Below are positions 4,069 to 22,314 of a DNA stretch of 22,314 bases, one piece after another; the stretch's first letter is position 1, and every line of letters starts with the position of its first letter. The stretch is from positions 1 through 22,314 of the IMG/VR virus record IMGVR_UViG_3300031576_000787. One strand, written 5' to 3'. A model generated the notes under the pieces. It did no database searches. It was not told the origin of the DNA and saw only the letters and a program-made list of their open reading frames with translations. Position numbers and translations under genes: made by a program. This DNA comes from a virus.

Positions 4069-4233
4069 ATGACCACGAAGACCTACCTGGTGAAGTCGGC
4101 AGTCGCCTACGGCACCAACGCCAAGGATCAGCGCCGCTACGAAGAGGGCGAGCAGATAGAGCTGGAAGACGCGGACGCGAAGCCGCTGCTCGCCAGCGGC
4201 GTGATCGAGGCGTCGAAAGCCAAGGCGAAGTGA
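4069..4233 (+). CDS. Small conserved Mu-like protein in the neck region
   Basis: A 54-residue protein beginning MTTKTYLVKSAVAYG and containing RRYEEGEQIELEDADAKPLLASGVIEA. This compact pattern (a short strand, then a 'y.eGe.ieL.d.da..Ll..G.ie' motif) recurs in small proteins coded between capsid and DUF1320 in Mu-like phages; its function is not established. The ATG at 4069 has AGGAGA about seven bases upstream. It sits immediately after the terminator, and its stop overlaps the GTG start of the next gene as GTGA. Confidence 0.72.
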   Translation: MTTKTYLVKSAVAYGTNAKDQRRYEEGEQIELEDADAKPLLASGVIEASKAKAK

Positions 4234-4658
4234 ACCGGAATTTTTTCAACCGCGAGTGTCAAGCGTGTGGGGGAGCCGCCCGTCAGGCGGCTTCGTTCAT
4301 CGCCATCGCGGCGATCCTCTTCATCCAGAGTTGCGCGAGCGTACCGCAGGCGTCGCGCGTTCCTCTGCACGTCTACCAGGACGACAAGACCGTCGTCAGC
4401 CTGTGGGACGGCGAGTGCCAGGAAGAAGTCGCGGCGCTGATCGCGCGCGCGGCGCCCGCTTATCGCGATCGTTTCCGCAACCTCACGAGCACCTTCACGC
4501 TGCAGAGCGGCGCGCGCCAGGACTTCGCCGGCTGCTGGATGGAGCTGACCGACGCCGAGACGCGCGGCCAGGGGGGGGCGTTCAGCATGCTGTTCGAGGA
4601 CGGCGACCAGCACGTCGTGCCGAAAGCAATGTTCAAGGCGCGCGCCGGGACGATCTGA
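4230..4658 (+). CDS. Predicted phage lipoprotein
   Basis: A 142-residue protein starting at GTG 4230, overlapping the previous stop as GTGA. After a polar N-terminus comes a hydrophobic stretch (ASFIAIAAILFIQSC, about residues 21-35) ending in a lipobox-like I-Q-S-Cys, then a soluble domain of about 107 residues. Cys is the likely lipidated residue. Known phage lipoproteins include outer-membrane spanin subunits and superinfection-exclusion or receptor-blocking proteins. None can be assigned here, and the soluble domain is larger than most o-spanins. The gene contains a G8 run at 4571-4578, so slippage could switch it off. No homologue recognised. Confidence 0.62.
   Translation: MNRNFFNRECQACGGAARQAASFIAIAAILFIQSCASVPQASRVPLHVYQDDKTVVSLWDGECQEEVAALIARAAPAYRDRFRNLTSTFTLQSGARQDFAGCWMELTDAETRGQGGAFSMLFEDGDQHVVPKAMFKARAGTI
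4571..4578 (+). repeat. G8 homopolymer inside the lipoprotein gene
   Basis: Eight consecutive G residues within the codons for Gln-Gly-Gly-Ala. Gain or loss of one G would truncate or change the last 28 or so residues. A candidate slippage site; it could also be a place for sequencing error, although the frame is intact as given. Confidence 0.85.
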
Positions 4659-4662
4659 GCTG

Positions 4663-5094
4663 ATGGGCTACGCAACCAAGCAGAACATGATCGACCGCTT
4701 CGACCAGGCTGAGCTGATCCAGCTCACCGATCGCGGCGTGCCGCCCACCGGCGCGATCGTTGACGCGGTGTTGAACAGTGCTCTGGCCGACGCCGACGCG
4801 GAGATCGACGGCTACCTGGTGGGCGCGTACCAACTCCCGCTTTCGAGCGTGCCGAAGAACCTGACGATGCTGGCGTGCGACATCGCACGCTACAAGCTGT
4901 ACGACGACCGCGCGACCGAGCATGTGCGGCAGAGGTACGACGATGCAGTCAAGTACCTGGTGCGCGTCGGCAAGGGCGAGTTGTCGCTCGGCCTGGACGC
5001 GACGGATCAGCCGGCGCCGTCGAGCAACGCGCCGATGGTGGACGGCCCGGAGCGCACGTTCTCGCGCGACAAACTGAGCGACTACACGCGGTGA
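4663..5094 (+). CDS. DUF1320 neck protein (Mu gp36-like)
   Basis: A 143-residue protein matching DUF1320 / Mu gp36. It starts MGYATKQNMIDRFDQAELIQLTDR and continues with DAVLNSALADADAEIDGYLVGAYQLPL, LTMLACDIARYKLY and a RYDDAVKYLVRVGKGELSLGL segment. These helical proteins act at the head-tail connector in the way of gp6-type adaptors. It starts four bases after the lipoprotein stop, so the two are probably translationally coupled, and it ends one base before the gp37-like gene. Confidence 0.9.
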   Translation: MGYATKQNMIDRFDQAELIQLTDRGVPPTGAIVDAVLNSALADADAEIDGYLVGAYQLPLSSVPKNLTMLACDIARYKLYDDRATEHVRQRYDDAVKYLVRVGKGELSLGLDATDQPAPSSNAPMVDGPERTFSRDKLSDYTR

Positions 5095-5095
5095 C

Positions 5096-6316
5096 ATGGG
5101 CATCAAGAGTGTCGAGGATCAGCTCCTTGCGAAAATCACCGCGGCTCTCACGGTCGCCGGCCAATCGAAAGTCAAGACCGTCGATGTGCTGCCGAGCGAT
5201 TGGGACAAGGACATGCTGAGGAAATTCGCGGCTGTCGCGCCTGCGGTGCTCATCGCGTTCTCCGGCGGCCAGGTCAAGGATCTCGGCGCGAACGACGCGG
5301 TGTCGCTCGATGCGCAGTGGTCGGTGATCGCGGTGACGGCGCACGCGAGCGGCAACGCCGCCAGGCGGCGCGGCGACAGCCAGCAGATTGGCGCGTTCGA
5401 GATCTGCGAGCGCCTGGTGCCCGAGCTGCACGGCTTCACGGTTCCCGACGAAGGCTCGCTCAACCTGGTCGCGATCGAGAACCTGTGGTCGGGCGAGATC
5501 GAGAAACAAGGGCTGGCGGTCTACGCGATGCGCTTCGGCCTGCTGATGTCGTTCCCGCTCGTCGCCGACGAATCCGGCATGGGCATCTTCCTCACGTTCG
5601 ACGGCAAGTACGATCTTCCCCCGCGCGAGCTGTATCTGTCGCTGCCGGGCGGCGCGGGCAACTACGCGAGCACGCCCGACAGCCAGGCCATCAGCATCGC
5701 CGGGGATCTCGACATCCGCGTGCGCGTGGCGCTCGATGACTGGACACCAGCGGCCGAGCAGATGCTCGCGGCGAAGTTCGGCGTCGCCAATCAGGGCAGC
5801 TACCGCCTGTCGGTGCTGCCCGGCGGGCAGTTGCGCTTCGGCTACAGCACCACCGGCGCGAACGCGTTCAACCGTGATTCGACCGCCGCGTGCGGCTTCC
5901 AGGACGGCACGGCGCATTGGGTGCGCTGCACGGCGGACGTAGACAACGGCGCCGCCGGCCATGACGTGAAGTTCTACAAGTCCGACGACTACGATCCCGC
6001 GACCGGCGCGGGAGCATGGACGCAGATCGGCGCGACGGTGGTGACGGCCGGCGTCATCGCGATCTTCGACGGCAACGCCGCGCTCGCGCTCGGCGCCGAC
6101 AGCGCGGGCGCATCGAGCGCCGCCGGCAAGCTGCTGCGCGCGCGCCTGCTGAACGGCATCAACGGCGTGCTCGCTGCGGAGTTCCGCGCCGACGACGCCA
6201 CGCCCAACACCGTGGCCTTCGCCTCGAAAGCGACCGGCGAAATCTGGACCCGCCAGGGCGCGGCCGTGATCGCCGACGACTTCGCGGCCGAAGACACCGT
6301 ATCTCTGCCGCAATAA
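5096..6316 (+). CDS. DUF1834 (Mu gp37-like) protein fused to a LamG/ConA-like domain
   Basis: A 406-residue protein of two parts. Residues 1 to about 155 match DUF1834 / Mu gp37, a tail-terminator or neck protein: N-terminal SVEDQLLAKITAAL, a WSVIAVTAHASGN strand region, and a C-terminal EKQGLAVYAMRFGLLMSF. From about residue 176 follows a second domain of about 220 residues with the look of a laminin-G / concanavalin-A-like jelly roll: GNYASTPDSQAISIAGDLDIRVRV split over strands, then LAAKFGVANQGSYRLSVLPGG and a repeated beta pattern to the end. Ordinary gp37 proteins end near residue 160, so this is a fusion. The extra domain could bind glycans on cells or mucus. The first domain is firm, the second is by pattern only. 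Confidence 0.8.
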   Translation: MGIKSVEDQLLAKITAALTVAGQSKVKTVDVLPSDWDKDMLRKFAAVAPAVLIAFSGGQVKDLGANDAVSLDAQWSVIAVTAHASGNAARRRGDSQQIGAFEICERLVPELHGFTVPDEGSLNLVAIENLWSGEIEKQGLAVYAMRFGLLMSFPLVADESGMGIFLTFDGKYDLPPRELYLSLPGGAGNYASTPDSQAISIAGDLDIRVRVALDDWTPAAEQMLAAKFGVANQGSYRLSVLPGGQLRFGYSTTGANAFNRDSTAACGFQDGTAHWVRCTADVDNGAAGHDVKFYKSDDYDPATGAGAWTQIGATVVTAGVIAIFDGNAALALGADSAGASSAAGKLLRARLLNGINGVLAAEFRADDATPNTVAFASKATGEIWTRQGAAVIADDFAAEDTVSLPQ

Positions 6317-6329
6317 CCAGGAGAAATTC

Positions 6330-6518
6330 GTGGACAACAGAATCTACGTGGTGCCCGCCAAGGGCCTGACCGTGATCAACCCGGCGAACAACCAGGCGCT
6401 GCCGACCGAGGGCGCCGAGGTCGAGATGACGCCGTACTGGCAGCGGCGCATCAACGAAGGCGACGTGGTTCAGGTTGCCGAGGGCAAGGCGCCCGCCAAA
6501 GCGAAGACCAAGGAGTAA
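6330..6518 (+). CDS. DUF2635 protein (Mu gp38-like)
   Basis: A 62-residue protein. It shows the DUF2635 pattern: a short N-terminal YVVPAKGLTVINP, then LPTEGAEVEMTPYWQRRINEGDVVQV. The C-terminus is Lys/Ala-rich. Function unknown, but the gene almost always sits directly before the sheath gene in Mu-like phages, as here. Starts at GTG 6330 with AGGAGA eight bases upstream. Confidence 0.85.
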   Translation: MDNRIYVVPAKGLTVINPANNQALPTEGAEVEMTPYWQRRINEGDVVQVAEGKAPAKAKTKE

Positions 6519-6524
6519 GCGCAC

Positions 6525-7985
6525 ATGGCCATCAGCTTCAACCAGATCCCGATCACGATCCGCACGCCGGGTCAATACATCGAGTTCGACAACACGAAGG
6601 CCGTCCAGGGCCTGCCGGCGGTGCCGAGCAAGATCCTGGTGATCGGCACGCGCCTCGCGGCCGGCTCGGTCGCGCAGGCGATCCCGAAGATGGTGCTGTC
6701 GGCGTCGCAGGCCGAAGACTTCTTCGGTCGCGGCTCGATGCTGTCGCACATGTTCCAGGCGCTCAAGAAAGCGAACCCGTACACCGAGGTGTGGGGCATC
6801 GCGCTCGACGAGAACGCGGCCGGCGCGAAAGCCACCGGCACGATCACCGTCGTCGGCCCGGCGACGGAGAGCGGCACGATCAACCTGCTGATCGCCAGCC
6901 GCTCCGTCCAGGTCGGCGTGACCTCGGGCGACGCGCAAAACGCCATCGCCACGGCGATCAACGCGGCGATCAACGCGAACACGGATCTGCCGGTGACCTC
7001 CGGCGCCGCCGCGAACGTGGTGACGCTGACCGCGCGCAGCAAGGGAACCTACGGCAACTTCGTCGACGTGCGCGAGAACTACTACTTCGGTGAGCGCACG
7101 CCGAAGGGCGTGGTCAACACGATCGTGGCGATGGCGGGCGGCACGACCAACCCGGTGCTCAACACCGCCATCGCGGCGATCGGCAACGAGCAGTACAACA
7201 CCGTGATCGTCGGCTACGAAGACGCGGCCAACCTCACCAGCCTGGAAACCGAGCTGAGCAACCGTTGGGGTCCGCTGCAGCAGAAGGAAGGCCAGGCGTT
7301 CACCGGCTTCGCCGGCACGCACGCCGCCGCCGTGACGCAGGGCGACTCGCGCAACAGCCCGTTCGTCACGATCGCGCACGTCGGCAAGGCGCCCACGCCC
7401 TGGTGGGAGTGGGCCGCGACCCTGGGCGCGGTCGATGCGTTCGAGCCCGACCCGGCGCGCCCGCGCCAGACGCTGCCGCTCACCGGCGCGCTGCCGCCCG
7501 CGCCGCAGGACCGCTACACGCGCGACGAGCGCGACATCCTGCTCAACCACGGCATCTCGACCTTCCTGGTCGATGCCGGCAGCGTGTGCATGATCGAACG
7601 CACCATCACCACCTACAAGACCAACGCCTTCGGCGTGCCCGACATCAGCTATCTCGACATCGAAACGATGCGCACGCTGGCCTACCTGCGCTATACGGTG
7701 CGCGCGCGCATCGCGCTGCGCTTCCCGCGCTGCAAGCTGGCGAACGACGGCACGCGCTTCGGCCCCGGCCAGGCGATCGTCACGCCGCTCACGATCCGCG
7801 CCGAGCTGTGCGCGCTCTTCCGCGAGTGGGAAGAGGTCGGCCTGGCGGAAGGCTTCGAGCAGTTCAAGGCCGACCTGATCGTCGAGCGCAATTTGACCGA
7901 CCCCAACCGCGTCGACGCGATTATCCCGCCCGACGTGGTCAACCAGTTCCGCGTGTTCGCGGGCAAAGTGCAGTTCCGGCTGTAA
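6525..7985 (+). CDS. Contractile tail sheath protein (Mu gpL-like)
   Basis: A 486-residue protein matching the Mu L sheath. It begins ISFNQIPITIRTPGQYIEFDNTKA and has PSKILVIGTRLA, a central domain with NPVLNTAIAAIGNEQYNTVIVGY, and the C-terminal sheath core with TYKTNAFGVPDISYLDIETMRT in two segments and NLTDPNRVDAIIPPDVVNQFRVFAGKVQF. The sheath contracts to drive the tube through the cell envelope. Length is typical for the family. The ribosome site AAGGAG overlaps the end of the DUF2635 gene. Confidence 0.96.
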   Translation: MAISFNQIPITIRTPGQYIEFDNTKAVQGLPAVPSKILVIGTRLAAGSVAQAIPKMVLSASQAEDFFGRGSMLSHMFQALKKANPYTEVWGIALDENAAGAKATGTITVVGPATESGTINLLIASRSVQVGVTSGDAQNAIATAINAAINANTDLPVTSGAAANVVTLTARSKGTYGNFVDVRENYYFGERTPKGVVNTIVAMAGGTTNPVLNTAIAAIGNEQYNTVIVGYEDAANLTSLETELSNRWGPLQQKEGQAFTGFAGTHAAAVTQGDSRNSPFVTIAHVGKAPTPWWEWAATLGAVDAFEPDPARPRQTLPLTGALPPAPQDRYTRDERDILLNHGISTFLVDAGSVCMIERTITTYKTNAFGVPDISYLDIETMRTLAYLRYTVRARIALRFPRCKLANDGTRFGPGQAIVTPLTIRAELCALFREWEEVGLAEGFEQFKADLIVERNLTDPNRVDAIIPPDVVNQFRVFAGKVQFRL

Positions 7986-7994
7986 GGAGAAACC

Positions 7995-8357
7995 GTGAGC
8001 CAGAGACTCGGAAAAGCGTTCATCAAGACCAACGGTGCGCTCCTGGAGACCTTGCCGGGCGCGAAGATCAACCTGGGCGGCATCAAGCGCACGCCGGTGA
8101 AAGGCGCGAACAGCGTGCACGGCTACTCGGAAGAGATCGAGACCGGCAAGGTCGAGTGCGAGATCTCCGTGAGCAAGGACACGAAGCTGATCGACTACGG
8201 GAAGATGAGCAACGTGTCGATCACCTTCGAGTGCGACACCGGGCAGACGTTCGTGATCAAGAACGCGTTCCTGACCGATCCGCCCGAGGCGACGGCGCAG
8301 GAAGGCGGCAAGGTGCCGCTCAAGTTCGAGGGCGATCCCGCCGACCAGGTGAACTGA
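7995..8357 (+). CDS. Tail tube protein (Mu gpM-like)
   Basis: A 120-residue protein matching the Mu M tube family: LGKAFIKTNGALLETLPGAKINLGG in two strands, a GYSEEIETGKVECEISV segment and a closing GGKVPLKFEGDPADQV. It polymerises into the inner tube within the sheath. It starts at GTG 7995 with AAGGAGA just upstream, ten bases after the sheath stop. Order sheath-tube-chaperone-tape measure is that of Mu. Confidence 0.93.
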   Translation: MSQRLGKAFIKTNGALLETLPGAKINLGGIKRTPVKGANSVHGYSEEIETGKVECEISVSKDTKLIDYGKMSNVSITFECDTGQTFVIKNAFLTDPPEATAQEGGKVPLKFEGDPADQVN

Positions 8358-8966: not shown

Positions 8967-10587
8967 CTTCATCATCGAAGCGATCGACCGCGCCACCGCC
9001 CCGGTGCGCGCGGTCAATCAGCGCATCGAGAAAGTGACCGAGCCGATCCGCAAGATCCGCGCGTCGGTGAACTCGCTGGTGCGCGAGAGCGGCCTGACCA
9101 GGCTCGCCGACCAGGCCAAGGTGGTCGGCGAGAAGTTCGAGGGCGTCAAGTCGTCGATCCTCAGCATCGGCGCTGCCGGCCTGGTCGCTGCGGCCGGCGC
9201 TGCGGCCGTGTGGTTGCCGATGAAGCACGTGATCGACCAGGGCAGCAGGATCAACGACACCGCCGAGATGCTCGGCGTCTCGGCGCGCGACTTCCAGCGG
9301 CTCGCCTACGCGCTCACGCTGGACGGTTCGAGCGCCGAGGATGCGGCCACGGCGCTGCGCTTCATGCAGAAGAACGCCGTCGATGCGCTCACCGGCAGCA
9401 AGGAGATGACCACCTGGTTCCGGCGCGCCGGCATGTCGGCCGACTTCCTGAAGAAGAACCTGAACGACCCGATCGCGATGGTGCACAAGATGTCGGACGC
9501 GATGGCGAAGAACCTCTCGCCCGCGCAGCGCATCGCGCTGATGCAGGCGCTGCTTGGCCGGGGCGGCGCGCGTCTGGTGCAGACGCTGTCGCAGGGGTCC
9601 GCTGCGCTGAACAAGTTCGGCGACGAGGCCGAGCGCCTGGGCGCGGTGATGGACGACAAGACCGTGTCGGCGATGGACGCCGTGGGCGACATGCTCACGC
9701 GTATGGACCGCGCCCTGGGCGGCGTCATGACGGTGGTGACGACGGCGGCACTGCCGGCCATCACCAGGATCGCCACGGGGGTCACCGAGTGGGCCGTCGC
9801 CAACCGCGCGCTGATCGCCACGCGCGTGACGGAGTTCGTTGAACGCCTGGTCAAGAATCTCCCGCATATCGTCGAAGTGGCGACGCAGATCGCCAGCGCC
9901 GTGGGCAGCGCGATCACGCGCGCCGACGCGCTCGCCCAGGCGATCGGCGGTTGGGAGAACGTCTTCAAGGCCATCGCCATCGTGCAGGGAATACAGCTCG
10001 CCGCAACGCTCTACCAGCTCGGCGCGGCCATCCTTGCTTTGATTCCTCCGATCGTCTCGTTCGGCATTGCGCTCATGGCAACGCCGGTCGGCTGGTTCAT
10101 CGGCGCCGTCGCGCTTCTGGCCGGCGCAGCGTTCCTGATCTACAAGAACTGGGGTCCGATCAGCGAGTTCTTCACCGATCTCTGGCGAGGCATCGTCGGC
10201 GCGGCGACCAGCAGCATCGAGTTCATCATGGACAAGGTCAATTCGATCGTCGCGTTCGTCAAAGACGTGATCCTGAAGCTCGACGCGATCACGCCGGAGT
10301 GGGTGAAGAAGTGGACGCTGCCGGGCGCGGTGCTCTCGGCCGCCGCCAACGCCGTGCGCCCCGCCGCCGCCGCCAACGCCGTGCGCCCCGCCGCCGCCGC
10401 CAACGCCGTGCGCCCCGCTGTGCCGTCGGCGTTGCCTGGCAGAGCCGGCGCGGGCCGGGCGGACGTCGGCGGCACGATCAACATCAAGATCGACCAGGAC
10501 GGCCGCGCGCGCGTCGCATCGATGCGCAGCGACAATCCCGGCGTTGATTACGACGTCGATACCGGCGTGTACCTGCCAACTTACTGA
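8947..10587 (+). CDS. Tail tape measure protein
   Basis: A 546-residue protein in the tape-measure position. The N-terminus (LSFIIEAIDRATAPVRAVN) and the helical, Ala-rich body with 'INDTAEMLGVSARDFQRLAY' are typical of Mu-like tape measures. Hydrophobic segments lie near residues 70-92 and 348-398 (ILALIPPIVSFGIALMATP, WFIGAVALLAGAAFLIY) and may insert into the host membrane on DNA entry. It is short, implying a short tail by the usual length rule. Near residues 465-491 a nine-residue unit NAVRPAAAA repeats three times. The ATG at 8947 follows AGGA and overlaps the frameshifted chaperone frame; the stop overlaps the next start as TGATG. Confidence 0.92.
   Translation: MSALRLSFIIEAIDRATAPVRAVNQRIEKVTEPIRKIRASVNSLVRESGLTRLADQAKVVGEKFEGVKSSILSIGAAGLVAAAGAAAVWLPMKHVIDQGSRINDTAEMLGVSARDFQRLAYALTLDGSSAEDAATALRFMQKNAVDALTGSKEMTTWFRRAGMSADFLKKNLNDPIAMVHKMSDAMAKNLSPAQRIALMQALLGRGGARLVQTLSQGSAALNKFGDEAERLGAVMDDKTVSAMDAVGDMLTRMDRALGGVMTVVTTAALPAITRIATGVTEWAVANRALIATRVTEFVERLVKNLPHIVEVATQIASAVGSAITRADALAQAIGGWENVFKAIAIVQGIQLAATLYQLGAAILALIPPIVSFGIALMATPVGWFIGAVALLAGAAFLIYKNWGPISEFFTDLWRGIVGAATSSIEFIMDKVNSIVAFVKDVILKLDAITPEWVKKWTLPGAVLSAAANAVRPAAAANAVRPAAAANAVRPAVPSALPGRAGAGRADVGGTINIKIDQDGRARVASMRSDNPGVDYDVDTGVYLPTY
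10339..10419 (+). repeat. Three tandem 27-bp repeats in the tape-measure gene
   Basis: Three head-to-tail 27-bp units at 10339-10365, 10366-10392 and 10393-10419; the visible difference is the final codon (GCC versus GCT). Each codes for three Ala and NAVRPA. The period is a multiple of three, so copy-number change keeps the frame and alters only the linker length. Confidence 0.95.
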
Positions 10588-18544: not shown

Positions 18545-18912
18545 ATCGTGTACCAGTCTCCGCATTGCCCGGTCGGGTTGCGTGCGGTGCGGGCGCAAAG
18601 CCGCTCGATCGGCTGGCCTTCGGGGTTGACGGAGCGCATCTGGATCTGCGCGCCGCCGACGCTGTAGAAGTCCTTGGTCAGCGTGCCGATCACGAACTTC
18701 GCGCGCTTCTGGACGTCGGCCTGGCCGTTGGCCTTCACGAGCACCTTGATGAAGAGCGTCGGCTGGTTCATGTAGACGCCGGTGCTGCAGGCGACGCCGT
18801 CCTTCTCGGGCGCGAGCTGCTTGCATTGCGCGTCGATGGTGTCGAATCGGCCGGCGTGCGCTGGCACCAAGGCGATGGAGAGAGCGGTGAGGATCAGCAG
18901 GCGGATCAGCAT
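18541..18912 (-). CDS. Secreted periplasmic protein of unknown function (prophage cargo)
   Basis: A 123-residue protein with a clear signal peptide (LIRLLILTALSIALVPAHA, cleaved near residue 21) and a mature domain of about 100 residues. The mature part contains four Cys (contexts AQCKQ, VACST, RLCAR, GQCGDW), enough for two disulfides, which suits the periplasm. ATG 18912 is favoured over an upstream TTG because GGAGG lies six bases before it. It is the first gene of a two-gene leftward unit that opposes the late operon and reads away from the prophage end, the usual arrangement of cargo (moron) genes expressed in the lysogen. Family not recognised. Confidence 0.75.
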   Translation of the reverse strand: MLIRLLILTALSIALVPAHAGRFDTIDAQCKQLAPEKDGVACSTGVYMNQPTLFIKVLVKANGQADVQKRAKFVIGTLTKDFYSVGGAQIQMRSVNPEGQPIERLCARTARNPTGQCGDWYTI

Positions 18913-19008
18913 GGGCAACCTCCGTGATTGACGCCGTCATGTTCAGCCAAGGCACCAGGCACGGTCAATGTGCAAATTCCCACTCCGGAGGGGCCTGGGT
19001 GGTCCGAT

Positions 19009-19098
19009 CCAACTGGCGTTCAAACGGCCGCCAGGCGGCGCGTTACGGGGTGGTCAAGACCATGCGTCGCAAGGGTTCGAGCCAAGCAGCGCGTTACA
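19009..19098 (+). repeat. Prophage right end with repeated putative transposase-binding sites
   Basis: CCAAGCAGCGCGTTAC (19082-19097) ends one base before the proposed terminus, and CCAGGCGGCGCGTTAC (19031-19046) repeats it 51 bp inwards with 14 of 16 identities. A weaker third copy may be CCAACTGGCGTTCAAAC at 19009, 22 bp further in. The terminal bases are CA, as in Mu-type ends. Direct repetition at a transposon end is what MuA-like transposases bind. Left-end counterparts are outside the window. Confidence 0.7.
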
Positions 19099-19737
19099 CT
19101 TGCCGCCCCGGATGTGCGGCAGCATGGAGGGCAGCGTGTCGAACATCGCCTGTACCTGATTGTCGATCAGCGCCGGCAACGACTCGTTGGTGCCCTTGTA
19201 GGGCACGTGCACCATGTCCGCCCCATCCCTCTTCTTGAACATCTCGAAAATCAGGTGCTGCGCGGTGCCGATTCCGACCGAGGCATAGTTGAGCTTGCCC
19301 GGTTGCGCCTTGGCGGCCGCGATGAGTTCCCCGACCGTCTTCGCGGGCACCGTGTTGCTCGTCACCAGAACGAGCGGCGACGCAGCGAACATCGTGATCG
19401 GCACCAGGTCCCGCTGCACGTTGTACGGCATGTCCTTGTACAGATTCGGAAAGATCGTCAGCGGCCCGAGGTTGCCCATGCCGATGGTGTAACCGTCGGG
19501 CGCCGCGCGGGCGACCTCGGCCACGCCGATACGTCCGCCCGCCCCTGGCTTGGAATCGTTGACGACCGGCTGACCAAGCGCTTTCGATACGCGGTCGTTG
19601 ATGACCCGCGCGAGAACATCATTCAGGCCGCCCGCCGGCCAGGGAACGATGAAACGGACCGGCTTGGCGGGCCAGTCCTGCGCCGCGGCAAGTGCCGGAA
19701 TCATTGCCGCGAACAGTGCGAGCACGATGCGTTGCAT
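19054..19737 (-). pseudogene. Truncated TctC/Bug-family solute-binding protein, interrupted by the prophage
   Basis: The 5' part of a periplasmic binding protein of the tripartite tricarboxylate (Bug/TctC) family. The signal peptide is MQRIVLALFAAMIPALAAAQ; then come the hallmark WPAKPVRFIVPWPAGG, VVNDSKPGAGGRIG, PDGYTIGMGNLGP, GKLNYASVGIGTAQHL and VPYKGTNESLPALI, ending DTLPSMLPHIRGGK. These 213 host codons span 19099-19737. Intact proteins have about 320 residues, so the last third is missing. Beyond 19098 the frame runs 14 codons into prophage sequence and stops. ATG 19737 has AAGGAA upstream; longer upstream readings lack family similarity. The dyad GTCAACTTGAC at 19783-19793, upstream of the start, may be an operator. 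The remainder should lie beyond the left prophage end. Confidence 0.92.
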
Positions 19738-19825
19738 GCTGGTTCCTTTCGTCATGCGCTGGATGCCGCTGGCCGATGCCCTGTCAACTTGACGCGAGTC
19801 AGCGGCAAACCTAGCATTTATAGAC

Positions 19826-20962
19826 ATGTCAAAGCAACCCGCGCTGCGAGTGGATCACGTCGGCAGCCTGTTGCGCCCGGAGCGCTTGAAAGACCTGTTC
19901 GGCAAGCACGCGGCGGGCTTCGCAAGCCGGGACGAGTTGCAGCACGCGCAGGACGCGGCCATTCGCGAGGTGGTCGCGAAACAGGAAAGCCGCGGCCTGC
20001 CGGTGGTGACCGACGGGGAGTACCGGCGCCTGAACTGGCAAGTGAGCTTTTCCGAAGTGGAGGGCTGGGACCTGTGGAGCGGCTCCTGGGAGAAACACCG
20101 CCGCAATCCGGAGAACCGCGGCCCCGGCGAAAAGCCGCTGACGAAAGGCGCCGACGCGGTGCTCACCTTTCGCACTCCGGCCACGTCGCGCCTAAAATTG
20201 GCGAAGAACTTCCCGCTGCAAGAGTTTCTGTTCCTCAAGAAAACCACGAAGTCGCTCGCCAAAATCACCCTCATGGGGCCGGACCGGGTGGCACAGATGT
20301 GCGACATCGAGGGCTCGCGCGCACACTACGTCGATGCGGACGAGTTTCTCGCGGACGTGGTTGCGATCCAGCGCTGCATGGTCGGCGAAATCGTGGATGC
20401 CGGCTGCAACTACATTCAGATCGACGAGCCGAGCTATACCGGCTACGTCGATCCGGCGACTCTCGAGCGCATGCAGGCGCGCAAAGAGGATCCGATGAAG
20501 AATCTGCGCCGCGCCGTGGCGGCGGACAACGCGGTGATCGAGGGGCTAGAGGGCCGCGCCACGTTCGGCCTCCACATCTGCCGCGGCAACCGCGCCAGCA
20601 TGTGGCACCGCGAAGGCAAGTACGACGCGATTGCCGAGACGCTGTTCGGCGGCCTCAGGTACGACCGGCTGCTGCTGGAATACGACACAGAGCGCGCCGG
20701 CGGCTTCGAACCGCTGCGTTTCGTGCCGCGCGGCGTGACCGTCGTGCTCGGCCTGATCACCACCAAGTCCGGGCGCGTCGAAAGCGTGGACGAACTGCGC
20801 AAGCGGATCGACGATGCAGCGCGCATCATCCCGCTTGAGCAACTCGCTCTCAGCCCGCAGTGCGGCTTTGCGTCCGGCATCGGCGGCAACCTGCTCAGCG
20901 AGAACGAACAGTGGCGGAAACTCGAGGTGATGCTGGAGACCGCGCGGCAGGTCTGGGGTTAG
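19826..20962 (+). CDS. MetE C-terminal-like (cobalamin-independent methionine synthase family) protein
   Basis: A 378-residue protein resembling the catalytic C-terminal half of MetE, alone without the N-terminal half. It shows VDHVGSLLRPERL, LPVVTDGEYRRLNWQ, CNYIQIDEPSYTGYV and the metal-ligand pattern of the family: His-x-Cys in FGLHICRGN (about residue 250), Glu in LLLEYDTERAG (about 285) and Cys in LSPQCGFAS (about 345). Such stand-alone proteins are common in betaproteobacteria and may move methyl or other groups between thiols; the substrate is unknown. It is divergent from the tctC-like gene. ATG 19826 lacks a good Shine-Dalgarno. Its end overlaps the MerR gene by 68 nt. Confidence 0.88.
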   Translation: MSKQPALRVDHVGSLLRPERLKDLFGKHAAGFASRDELQHAQDAAIREVVAKQESRGLPVVTDGEYRRLNWQVSFSEVEGWDLWSGSWEKHRRNPENRGPGEKPLTKGADAVLTFRTPATSRLKLAKNFPLQEFLFLKKTTKSLAKITLMGPDRVAQMCDIEGSRAHYVDADEFLADVVAIQRCMVGEIVDAGCNYIQIDEPSYTGYVDPATLERMQARKEDPMKNLRRAVAADNAVIEGLEGRATFGLHICRGNRASMWHREGKYDAIAETLFGGLRYDRLLLEYDTERAGGFEPLRFVPRGVTVVLGLITTKSGRVESVDELRKRIDDAARIIPLEQLALSPQCGFASGIGGNLLSENEQWRKLEVMLETARQVWG

Positions 20963-21341
20963 GCGGCCGCTTGCCGTTCGCGATCCATTCGCCGTAGAAC
21001 TCGATCTTGCCGTCGAGCAGCTTCAGCGCGCCCTGCCATTCGGCGATCGTTTCCTGGACGCGCGCGCGGTGCGCGGCGAGGATGTCCCTTCGCTCCGCTA
21101 GCGTCGTCCTCCCCCGCTTGACCAGCGCGGTGTAGGCGCGCATTTGCGCAATCGACATGCCGGTACGGCGCAGGCGCTCCATCAGCTCCAGCCAGCCCAG
21201 ATGCTGGTCGCTGTAGACGCGCCGACCGACCGCGTCGCGCGCGACACCGGGAATCAGCCCCTGCGCTTCGTACCAGCGGATCGCGTGGATGCTGCGGCCG
21301 ACGCGCGCTGAAAGCTCGCCGATGCGCAATGCCTCAGGCAT
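20895..21341 (-). CDS. MerR-family transcriptional regulator
   Basis: A 148-residue regulator. The winged helix-turn-helix is at residues 4-70: LRIGELSARVGRSIHAIRWYE, GLIPGVARDAVGRRVYSDQH, then LERLRRTGMSIAQMRAY-like recognition and dimer-helix sequence, and a long coiled-coil ending in KLLDGKIEFYGEWIANGKRP. It has no Cys, so a Cys-ligated metal or thiol-redox effector is unlikely. The C-terminal tail is Arg/Pro-rich and overlaps the convergent MetE-like gene. ATG 21341 lies inside the last codons of the SnoaL-like gene (8-nt overlap), so both are one operon. The promoter upstream of that operon has a MerR-type layout, which suggests autoregulation. Confidence 0.9.
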   Translation of the reverse strand: MPEALRIGELSARVGRSIHAIRWYEAQGLIPGVARDAVGRRVYSDQHLGWLELMERLRRTGMSIAQMRAYTALVKRGRTTLAERRDILAAHRARVQETIAEWQGALKLLDGKIEFYGEWIANGKRPPNPRPAARSPASPRVSATVRSR

Positions 21342-21774
21342 GCGACGCTTTGCCGGCGGCCGCAGCACCCGCGGGGCGGAACCAGGTGTCATGGACGTGC
21401 TGCGTATCCAGGTATTCCCGGACAGCGCAGATCTTGCCGTCGCGGAACCTGAGGAGGATGTGGTACTCCTGGCTGTACACACGGCCGTTCTTCAGCGCGC
21501 CGCGGCCTTCGAGCTCCACCGCGACGCGGTCGCCCTCGGCGGTCATGCCCTTCACCGTCATCGCGAGGCCGCCGTCAAGCCCCGCCATCATGCTCTCGAA
21601 GAGCCGGGCCATCTGCGCCTTATCCCTGGTCCCGCAAGTCGGCACCGAGCCGGGCTTGCCTGCGATCCAGTAGCTCAGGTCGTCGGTCATGTGCGCGAGG
21701 ACGCCCGCTATGTCGCGGCCGCCAAAGCGCGCGACAAATTCCTCGGCGAGCCGTTTGTTGCGTTCATTGCTCAT
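21334..21774 (-). CDS. SnoaL / NTF2-like protein
   Basis: A 146-residue cone-shaped-fold protein of the SnoaL/NTF2-like superfamily: ERNKRLAEEFVARFGGRDIAGVLAHMTDDLSYWIAGKPGS in the first helices and strand, MTAEGDRVAVELEGRGALKNGRVY in the middle, then YHILLRFRDGKICAVREYLDT, the usual penultimate strands. Members are isomerases, hydrolases or ligand binders; no substrate can be read here. ATG 21774 is chosen (GGAG nine bases upstream) over an upstream in-frame ATG at 21816, because the promoter lies at 21808-21838. First gene of the operon with the MerR regulator. Confidence 0.85.
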   Translation of the reverse strand: MSNERNKRLAEEFVARFGGRDIAGVLAHMTDDLSYWIAGKPGSVPTCGTRDKAQMARLFESMMAGLDGGLAMTVKGMTAEGDRVAVELEGRGALKNGRVYSQEYHILLRFRDGKICAVREYLDTQHVHDTWFRPAGAAAAGKASHA

Positions 21775-21807
21775 GCGAGCTGCTCCGTGTTGTCGGGACG
21801 AGCGCCC

Positions 21808-21838
21808 ATTGGACAACCTAGAGCGTACTCTATGTCAA
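21808..21838 (-). promoter_or_regulatory. MerR-type promoter and operator of the SnoaL-merR operon
   Basis: Read leftward: -35 TTGACA (21838-21833), then a 19-bp spacer, then -10 TCCAAT (21813-21808). The spacer carries the perfect dyad TAGAG-TACG-CTCTA (21819-21832), starting directly after the -35. An over-long 19-bp spacer with a dyad between -35 and -10 is the hallmark of MerR-activated promoters. The dyad resembles the TAGAGT/ACTCTA half-sites reported for aldehyde-type MerR regulators. It also lies 26 bp before hutU, so it could affect that gene. Confidence 0.75.
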
Positions 21839-21857
21839 AGGGCATATCATTCCGCTT

Positions 21858-22314
21858 ATGCCCTATTCCTCCGGACCCCGCACCGTGCGCGCGCCGCGCG
21901 GCACGCAGCTCTCGGCGAAGAGCTGGCTCACCGAGGCGCCTCTGCGCATGCTGATGAACAACCTCGATCCGGAGGTCGCCGAACGGCCCGAGGATCTGGT
22001 GGTCTACGGCGGCATCGGCAAGGCGGCGAGGAACTGGGAATGCTTTGATCGTATTGTTGAATCATTGAAAGAATTGAATTCGGATGAATCGTTGCTGATT
22101 CAATCCGGCAAACCTGTAGGCGTCTTCAAGACGCATCCCGACGCGCCGCGGGTGCTGATCGCGAATTCCAACCTGGTGCCGCACTGGGCCACCTCGGAGC
22201 ACTTCAACGAGCTCGACCGCAAGGGCCTGATGATGTACGGCCAGATGACCGCGGGCTCGTGGATCTACATCGGCAGCCAGGGCATCGTGCAGGGGACCTA
22301 CGAGACCTTCGCCG
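21858..22314 (+). CDS. hutU: Urocanate hydratase (urocanase), N-terminal part cut by window end
   Basis: The second enzyme of histidine degradation: adds water to urocanate giving 4-imidazolone-5-propionate, using tightly bound NAD+. The 152 codons present match urocanase strongly: [75 protein letters not shown] and [20 protein letters not shown] then [14 protein letters not shown]. The full protein has about 555 residues, the rest lying beyond the window. ATG 21858 fits the family's start but has no clear Shine-Dalgarno. Codons from about 22035 to 22125 are clearly more A+T-rich than the rest. Other hut genes should follow. Confidence 0.96.

Follow-up and report, generated by a model that had tools for sequence, protein, structure and literature searches.

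The window, a 22,314-nucleotide stretch of viral DNA (IMG/VR record IMGVR_UViG_3300031576_000787), contains a set of structural genes in the Mu-like order gp36-gp37-gp38-sheath-tube-TMP-gp43, in which gp38 and gp43 are represented by gp38-like and gp43-like proteins. The gp37-type gene (5096..6316, plus strand) encodes a protein of 406 aa without internal stops, a tail terminator with an inserted LamG/ConA-like domain that is recognised by its matches to PF08873, phrog_490 and phrog_5313. It is placed between the gene of a gp36-type head-tail adaptor (4663..5094; PF07030, E 3.1e-43) and that of a contractile tail sheath (6525..7985; PF04984/PF17482 and phrog_165, E 1.1e-187), and is directly followed by the gene of a gp38-like small protein of 62 aa (6330..6518; phrog_208, E 5.1e-19). 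The tail tube protein is encoded downstream of the sheath (7995..8357; phrog_185, E 9.4e-26), and all of these genes are on the plus strand. Judging from its homology with Mu gp39, the sheath protein would be the partner of the gp37 tail.

Several other features of the window may be mentioned here. The gene of a virion-morphogenesis/neck protein (phrog_26; 729-1157) is on the minus strand, whereas the other structural genes run in the opposite direction; in one relative (G770) the homologous gene lies upstream of gp37, on the plus strand, and in another (G768) it is found at a contig end, on the minus strand. An ORF of 142 aa between the capsid and gp36 genes (4230-4658, plus strand) has a start that resembles a lipoprotein signal and gave no PHROG match. 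Close to the C-terminus of the tape-measure protein (~10390-10480) the sequence NAVRPAAAA occurs as three tandem repeats that are nearly identical, and a C1q match of the tail fibre was not significant (E 0.16). The right end of the window (~18900-22314) resembles host DNA and by eye encodes a TctC/Bug-type periplasmic binding protein and a MetE-like protein, which suggests a host of the Burkholderiales type.

The terminator core comprises residues 1-157 (5096..5566, plus strand) and has the fold of Mu gp37. PF08873 (Phage_Mu_Gp37) matches residues 3-147 with an E-value of 1.9e-16 and 60.9 bits, against a curated cut-off of 25 bits, and phrog_490 likewise matches the gp37 part of the ORF (E 6.5e-27). 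A profile built from gp37 relatives finds the solved structure of Mu gp37, deposited as a 'probable tail terminator protein' (PDB 9khy), at E 1e-13, and a 12-row gp37 profile reaches Mu gp37 in the PDB at E 4e-31. By fold, the predicted core matches 9khy_1 (Foldseek, E 6.1e-7) and 2gjv_A, the latter with a Z-score of 15.1 across residues 1-157. These matches to PF08873, phrog_490, 9khy and 2gjv_A bear out the initial annotation, which had called residues 1-155 a DUF1834/gp37 protein. Mu gp37 (PDB 9khy, 9lj8; PF08873) and the window protein are alike in core fold, sequence family, gene neighbourhood and the start of the C-terminal tail, but Mu gp37 is a 182 aa protein with no inserted domain, whereas the window gp37 accommodates about 218 residues inside its tail.

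The inserted domain and its place in the tail

Residues 177-394 (5624..6277, plus strand) form a domain of the LamG/ConA/pentraxin fold that belongs to the phrog_5313 module. Positions 227-435 of phrog_5313 match residues 176-393 with an E-value of 8.7e-26, and since this region thus has a family of its own, the LamG-like pattern that had been noticed in it is no chance pattern. Sequence identity to phrog_5313 members is 23-35% over the whole module and up to 44% locally, the latter value being found with gp25 of Arthrobacter phage Shoya (E 4e-18). The conserved residues of the family, D204, D206, W216, R277, D281 and others, are kept.

Pfam gave no match for the inserted domain of the window, Laminin_G_3 (PF13385) included, and just two of 45 module family members match Laminin_G_3, both weakly (best E 0.0035); searches of the PDB by sequence returned chance-level matches only. 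With these searches having given nothing, the fold was seen by structure comparison. AlphaFold2, run with a 45-row module alignment, produced an all-β model with a mean pLDDT of 92.7 and a pTM of 0.88. Of the mixed alignments A9 was used, and A5, A8 and A10, in which module rows were partly placed on the gp37 N-terminus, were left out. Foldseek and VIA-align place the model in the ConA/LamG/pentraxin group of two-sheet jelly-rolls, where the top structural matches are pentraxins, the LG domains of neurexin and laminin, a sialyllactose-binding sialidase CBM40 and the putative carbohydrate-binding protein 4dqa, with Z-scores of about 15-19 for the LG and pentraxin rows. When predicted viral proteins are compared, the model comes closest to phage proteins, which include several named ConA-like lectin/glucanase as well as Shoya gp25. 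The initial annotation had described about 220 further residues with a β-rich, LamG-like pattern and had counted any structure of residues 176-406 other than a jelly roll as contrary evidence; the model is a confidently predicted jelly roll of about 218 residues.

The same annotation had presented the lectin-like domain as fused after gp37, with bounds at residues 165-406. The fusion stands, but alignment with relatives indicates that the domain is inserted rather than appended. The first half of the conserved C-terminal tail is found at residues 160-175 (5573..5620, plus strand) and the second half at residues 395-406 (6278..6313, plus strand), after the insert. Residues 160-175 are, by sequence, the probable counterpart of the start of the sheath-binding C-terminal β-hairpin of Mu, the gp37 profile extending into residues 146-166 of Mu gp37. 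In the window the order is TFDGKYDLPP (residues ~166-175), the jelly roll and then DDFAAEDTVSLPQ as the last residues, whereas the normal gp37 tail of the closest relatives reads TFDAKYDIPP...DDFSTSKPEARDTVSLPQ, the full tail of one of these, L051, being TFDAKYDIPPFAGELEYASWLQDDFSTSKPEARDTVSLPQ. The closest IMG/VR relatives have cores that are 77% (L051/L014) and 74% (L052/L015) identical to that of the window and yet are ordinary 207-residue proteins without the jelly roll, which is contrary to the possibility, raised at the outset, that this region is an integral part of the neck ring in all homologues of this gp37 branch. In more distant relatives the loop between the two conserved tail segments varies in length. 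Given the native tail halves on both sides and the closely related cores that are without it, the jelly roll is an in-frame insertion between two conserved tail halves and not an appendage; both halves being native, the inserted domain runs from about 177 to 394. In the AlphaFold2 monomer model residues 164-175 and 397-406 have pLDDT values below 50. Both halves are thus of low confidence, as they would be if folding took place only on the sheath. The window tail may form the same hairpin as that of Mu.

It is highly improbable that the fusion is an assembly or recombination artefact of the contig. It occurs in a single record whose relatives are without the insert, and the GC content of the insert (71.0%) differs from that of the N-terminal part of gp37 (64.6%), as might be seen after a chimeric join. 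However, such a join would rarely keep the frame at both ends of an insert and place it between two native tail halves; furthermore, a normal downstream gene starts 13 bases past the stop codon, and the GC3 of the insert (91.9%) is within the range of its neighbours (87-95%).

Occurrence of the module and of extended terminators

A tblastn search with the whole protein returned 38 phage records, in 36 of which the module part was matched, from phages of Streptomyces, Arthrobacter, Curtobacterium and Cellulophaga. In several Streptomyces phages the module is encoded by the gene that follows the tape measure, in Shoya it is within a gene annotated as hydrolase or tail fibre and in Teagster it is in a tail/hydrolase-type protein. 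By eye, the module of Shoya gp25 (L003:5137-7002) and of gp16 of Curtobacterium phage Teagster (L006:4608-6113) lies inside an SGNH-type-esterase-like sequence; gp25 is annotated as hydrolase/tail fibre and gp16 as minor tail protein. An alignment scan of IMG/VR with the module confirmed 488 relatives; 79 loci were retained, and among these the module and the gp37 domain occur together only in the window's own copies. At the locus L054 the module is carried by a protein whose residues 1-151 match the major tail protein family phrog_9522 (E 2.4e-7), with a tape-measure gene downstream. Phage proteins of ~1,217 residues at three further loci (L070, L071 and L085) contain four copies of the LamG-like module each. 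The module is also found in proteins of phages that are annotated without a sheath.

Judging from these matches, phrog_5313 is a known mobile domain of phage virions whose carriers include tail-tube, distal-tail and hydrolase proteins. By sequence, the domain inserted in the window gp37 is a clear member of this family of Streptomyces, Arthrobacter, Curtobacterium and Cellulophaga phage tail proteins, but none of the other members was found in a tail terminator. As the module is widespread in phage virions, the novelty lies in its position and not in the domain.

How rare the fusion is can be gauged from 58 distinct gp37 cores, measured in about 49 clusters across all loci fetched. In 56 of the 58 the protein ends within 74 residues after the core, and the remaining two have extensions of more than 250 residues, namely the window (255 residues past the core) and L174/L197 (289 residues). 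Long gp37 open frames in genomes (e.g. 411 and 369 aa) were rejected, being due to upstream read-through and not to C-terminal extensions. When IMG/VR was scanned for close relatives with the module alone, nothing was returned, and an exact-spacing pattern across the 3' junction was likewise without matches. With both scans empty no second copy of the gp37-module fusion is known, and it is represented by one record. A fusion seen once, in a loop that is already variable in length in relatives and so tolerates additions, could be neutral or transient, a mobile module in a tolerant loop with no measurable benefit. This is improbable: the inserted domain is intact and in frame, keeps the conserved residues of its family and is predicted to fold with high confidence.

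The second extended terminator (L197) belongs to a Mu-like prophage of a gamma-proteobacterial genome, which is also present in an IMG/VR record at 100% and has a sheath 45% identical to that of the window. A second prophage of the same genome (L201), with a sheath 48% identical, encodes a related extended gp37. In these two terminators (L197:4887-6065, plus strand; L201:5235-6491, minus strand) the C-terminal extensions (L197:5424-6065 and L201:5235-5882) are each ~215 residues long and are 38% identical to each other. They come after the whole tail and not within it, and show no sequence relation to the module of the window; by eye they look LamG-like, for which profile searches gave no support.

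Arrangement and possible function at the neck

The gp37 protein of Mu caps the tail tube and the sheath as a hexamer. Its C-terminal β-hairpin is interlaced with domain I of the last sheath ring, the two together making up a four-stranded sheet, and becomes longer when the sheath contracts (PMC11915804). If the hexamer, the neck position and the contact between hairpin and sheath are carried over from the Mu structure, the N-terminal domain of the window protein would assemble into a hexameric ring, which closes off the tail tube and sheath and attaches to the adaptor. The jelly roll was acquired in frame, at the point where the two tail halves are joined by a loop that varies in length. Because the tail hairpin of Mu and domain I of the top sheath ring are interlaced, the six jelly rolls would encircle the junction of neck and sheath, each held at its two ends and exposed outwards, and would shift as the sheath contracts and the hairpin stretches. 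They would probably serve as accessory binding sites, weak but multivalent, for polysaccharide of the host surface or the environment. The protein is a tail terminator of the Mu type to which a mobile LamG/ConA-type domain has been added; this domain probably acts as an accessory adhesin at the neck, and by analogy with Mu the six jelly rolls most likely form an outer ring of weak accessory adhesins.

The initial annotation had envisaged several copies of a glycan-binding fold displayed at the neck. A gp37-type ring component that carries a jelly roll is indeed present, and its Mu counterpart is hexameric at the neck (PMC11915804); the binding itself would be in keeping with the fold. Glycan or mucus binding is suggested by this fold together with the company that the module keeps, although no reported ligand was found for any phrog_5313 member. 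A LamG/ConA fold is not proof of sugar binding, and such domains also mediate protein-protein contacts.

The main rival to the adhesin reading is that the jelly roll has a structural role, bracing the junction of the terminator with the top sheath ring (or with the adaptor) and stabilising the neck without binding any glycan. Such a role is rather unlikely but has a precedent, as the terminator of phage 812 has a β-sandwich domain of its own that binds tail sheath proteins (PMC12886913). By description this protein, gp99, is like that of the window a contractile-phage tail terminator with an extra β-sandwich domain; its domain reportedly attaches to the sheath. Tail terminators that have further domains in contact with the sheath are also on record (PMC11784142), and the insert is located in the sheath-contacting tail. 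However, the closest relatives manage without a bracing domain, and the occurrence of the module in phages annotated without a sheath argues against a sheath-specific part. As the domain is borne on the loop of the hairpin between terminator and sheath, a more far-reaching reading may also be considered, in which glycan capture at the neck is mechanically coupled to contraction as a trigger, brake or anchor, so that the ring would be a neck sensor and not a passive adhesin; this is quite improbable.

An accessory adhesin at the neck would have partial precedents. Ig-like domains are found on tail tubes and sheaths (PMC9022992; PMC9230969) and, more broadly, on tail-tube, capsid, baseplate, fibre and Hoc proteins, and likewise represent a mobile β-sandwich added to a virion protein (PMC9022992). 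The window domain differs from these in its ConA/LamG fold and in its carrier protein, tail terminators being absent from the five classes of Ig-like carriers in that review. Lactococcal 936 phages have carbohydrate-binding modules at neck and tail, two of which bound host cells, and those of the neck passage structure resemble the window protein in that putative glycan-binding domains are displayed at the neck (PMC6669499). In these siphophages the modules belong to a separate collar protein on trimeric fibres, whereas in the contractile phage of the window the domain is joined to the terminator ring itself.

A limited search of the open-access literature found no description of a lectin-type domain in a tail terminator, which does not prove priority. 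Decoration domains are well known from phage heads, tail tubes, sheaths, baseplates and separate neck fibres; to our knowledge the head-tail junction is a place where they are rarely seen. A lectin-type fold in the tail-terminator ring of a contractile phage would be a new attachment point for decoration, and the extended terminators of the two gamma-proteobacterial prophages suggest that the terminator is a recurrent and overlooked site for added domains. From the insertion it appears that a passenger domain of ~218 residues can be carried by the sheath-clasping tail, which moves during contraction, and the terminator loop offers a defined site for testing the role of neck decorations.
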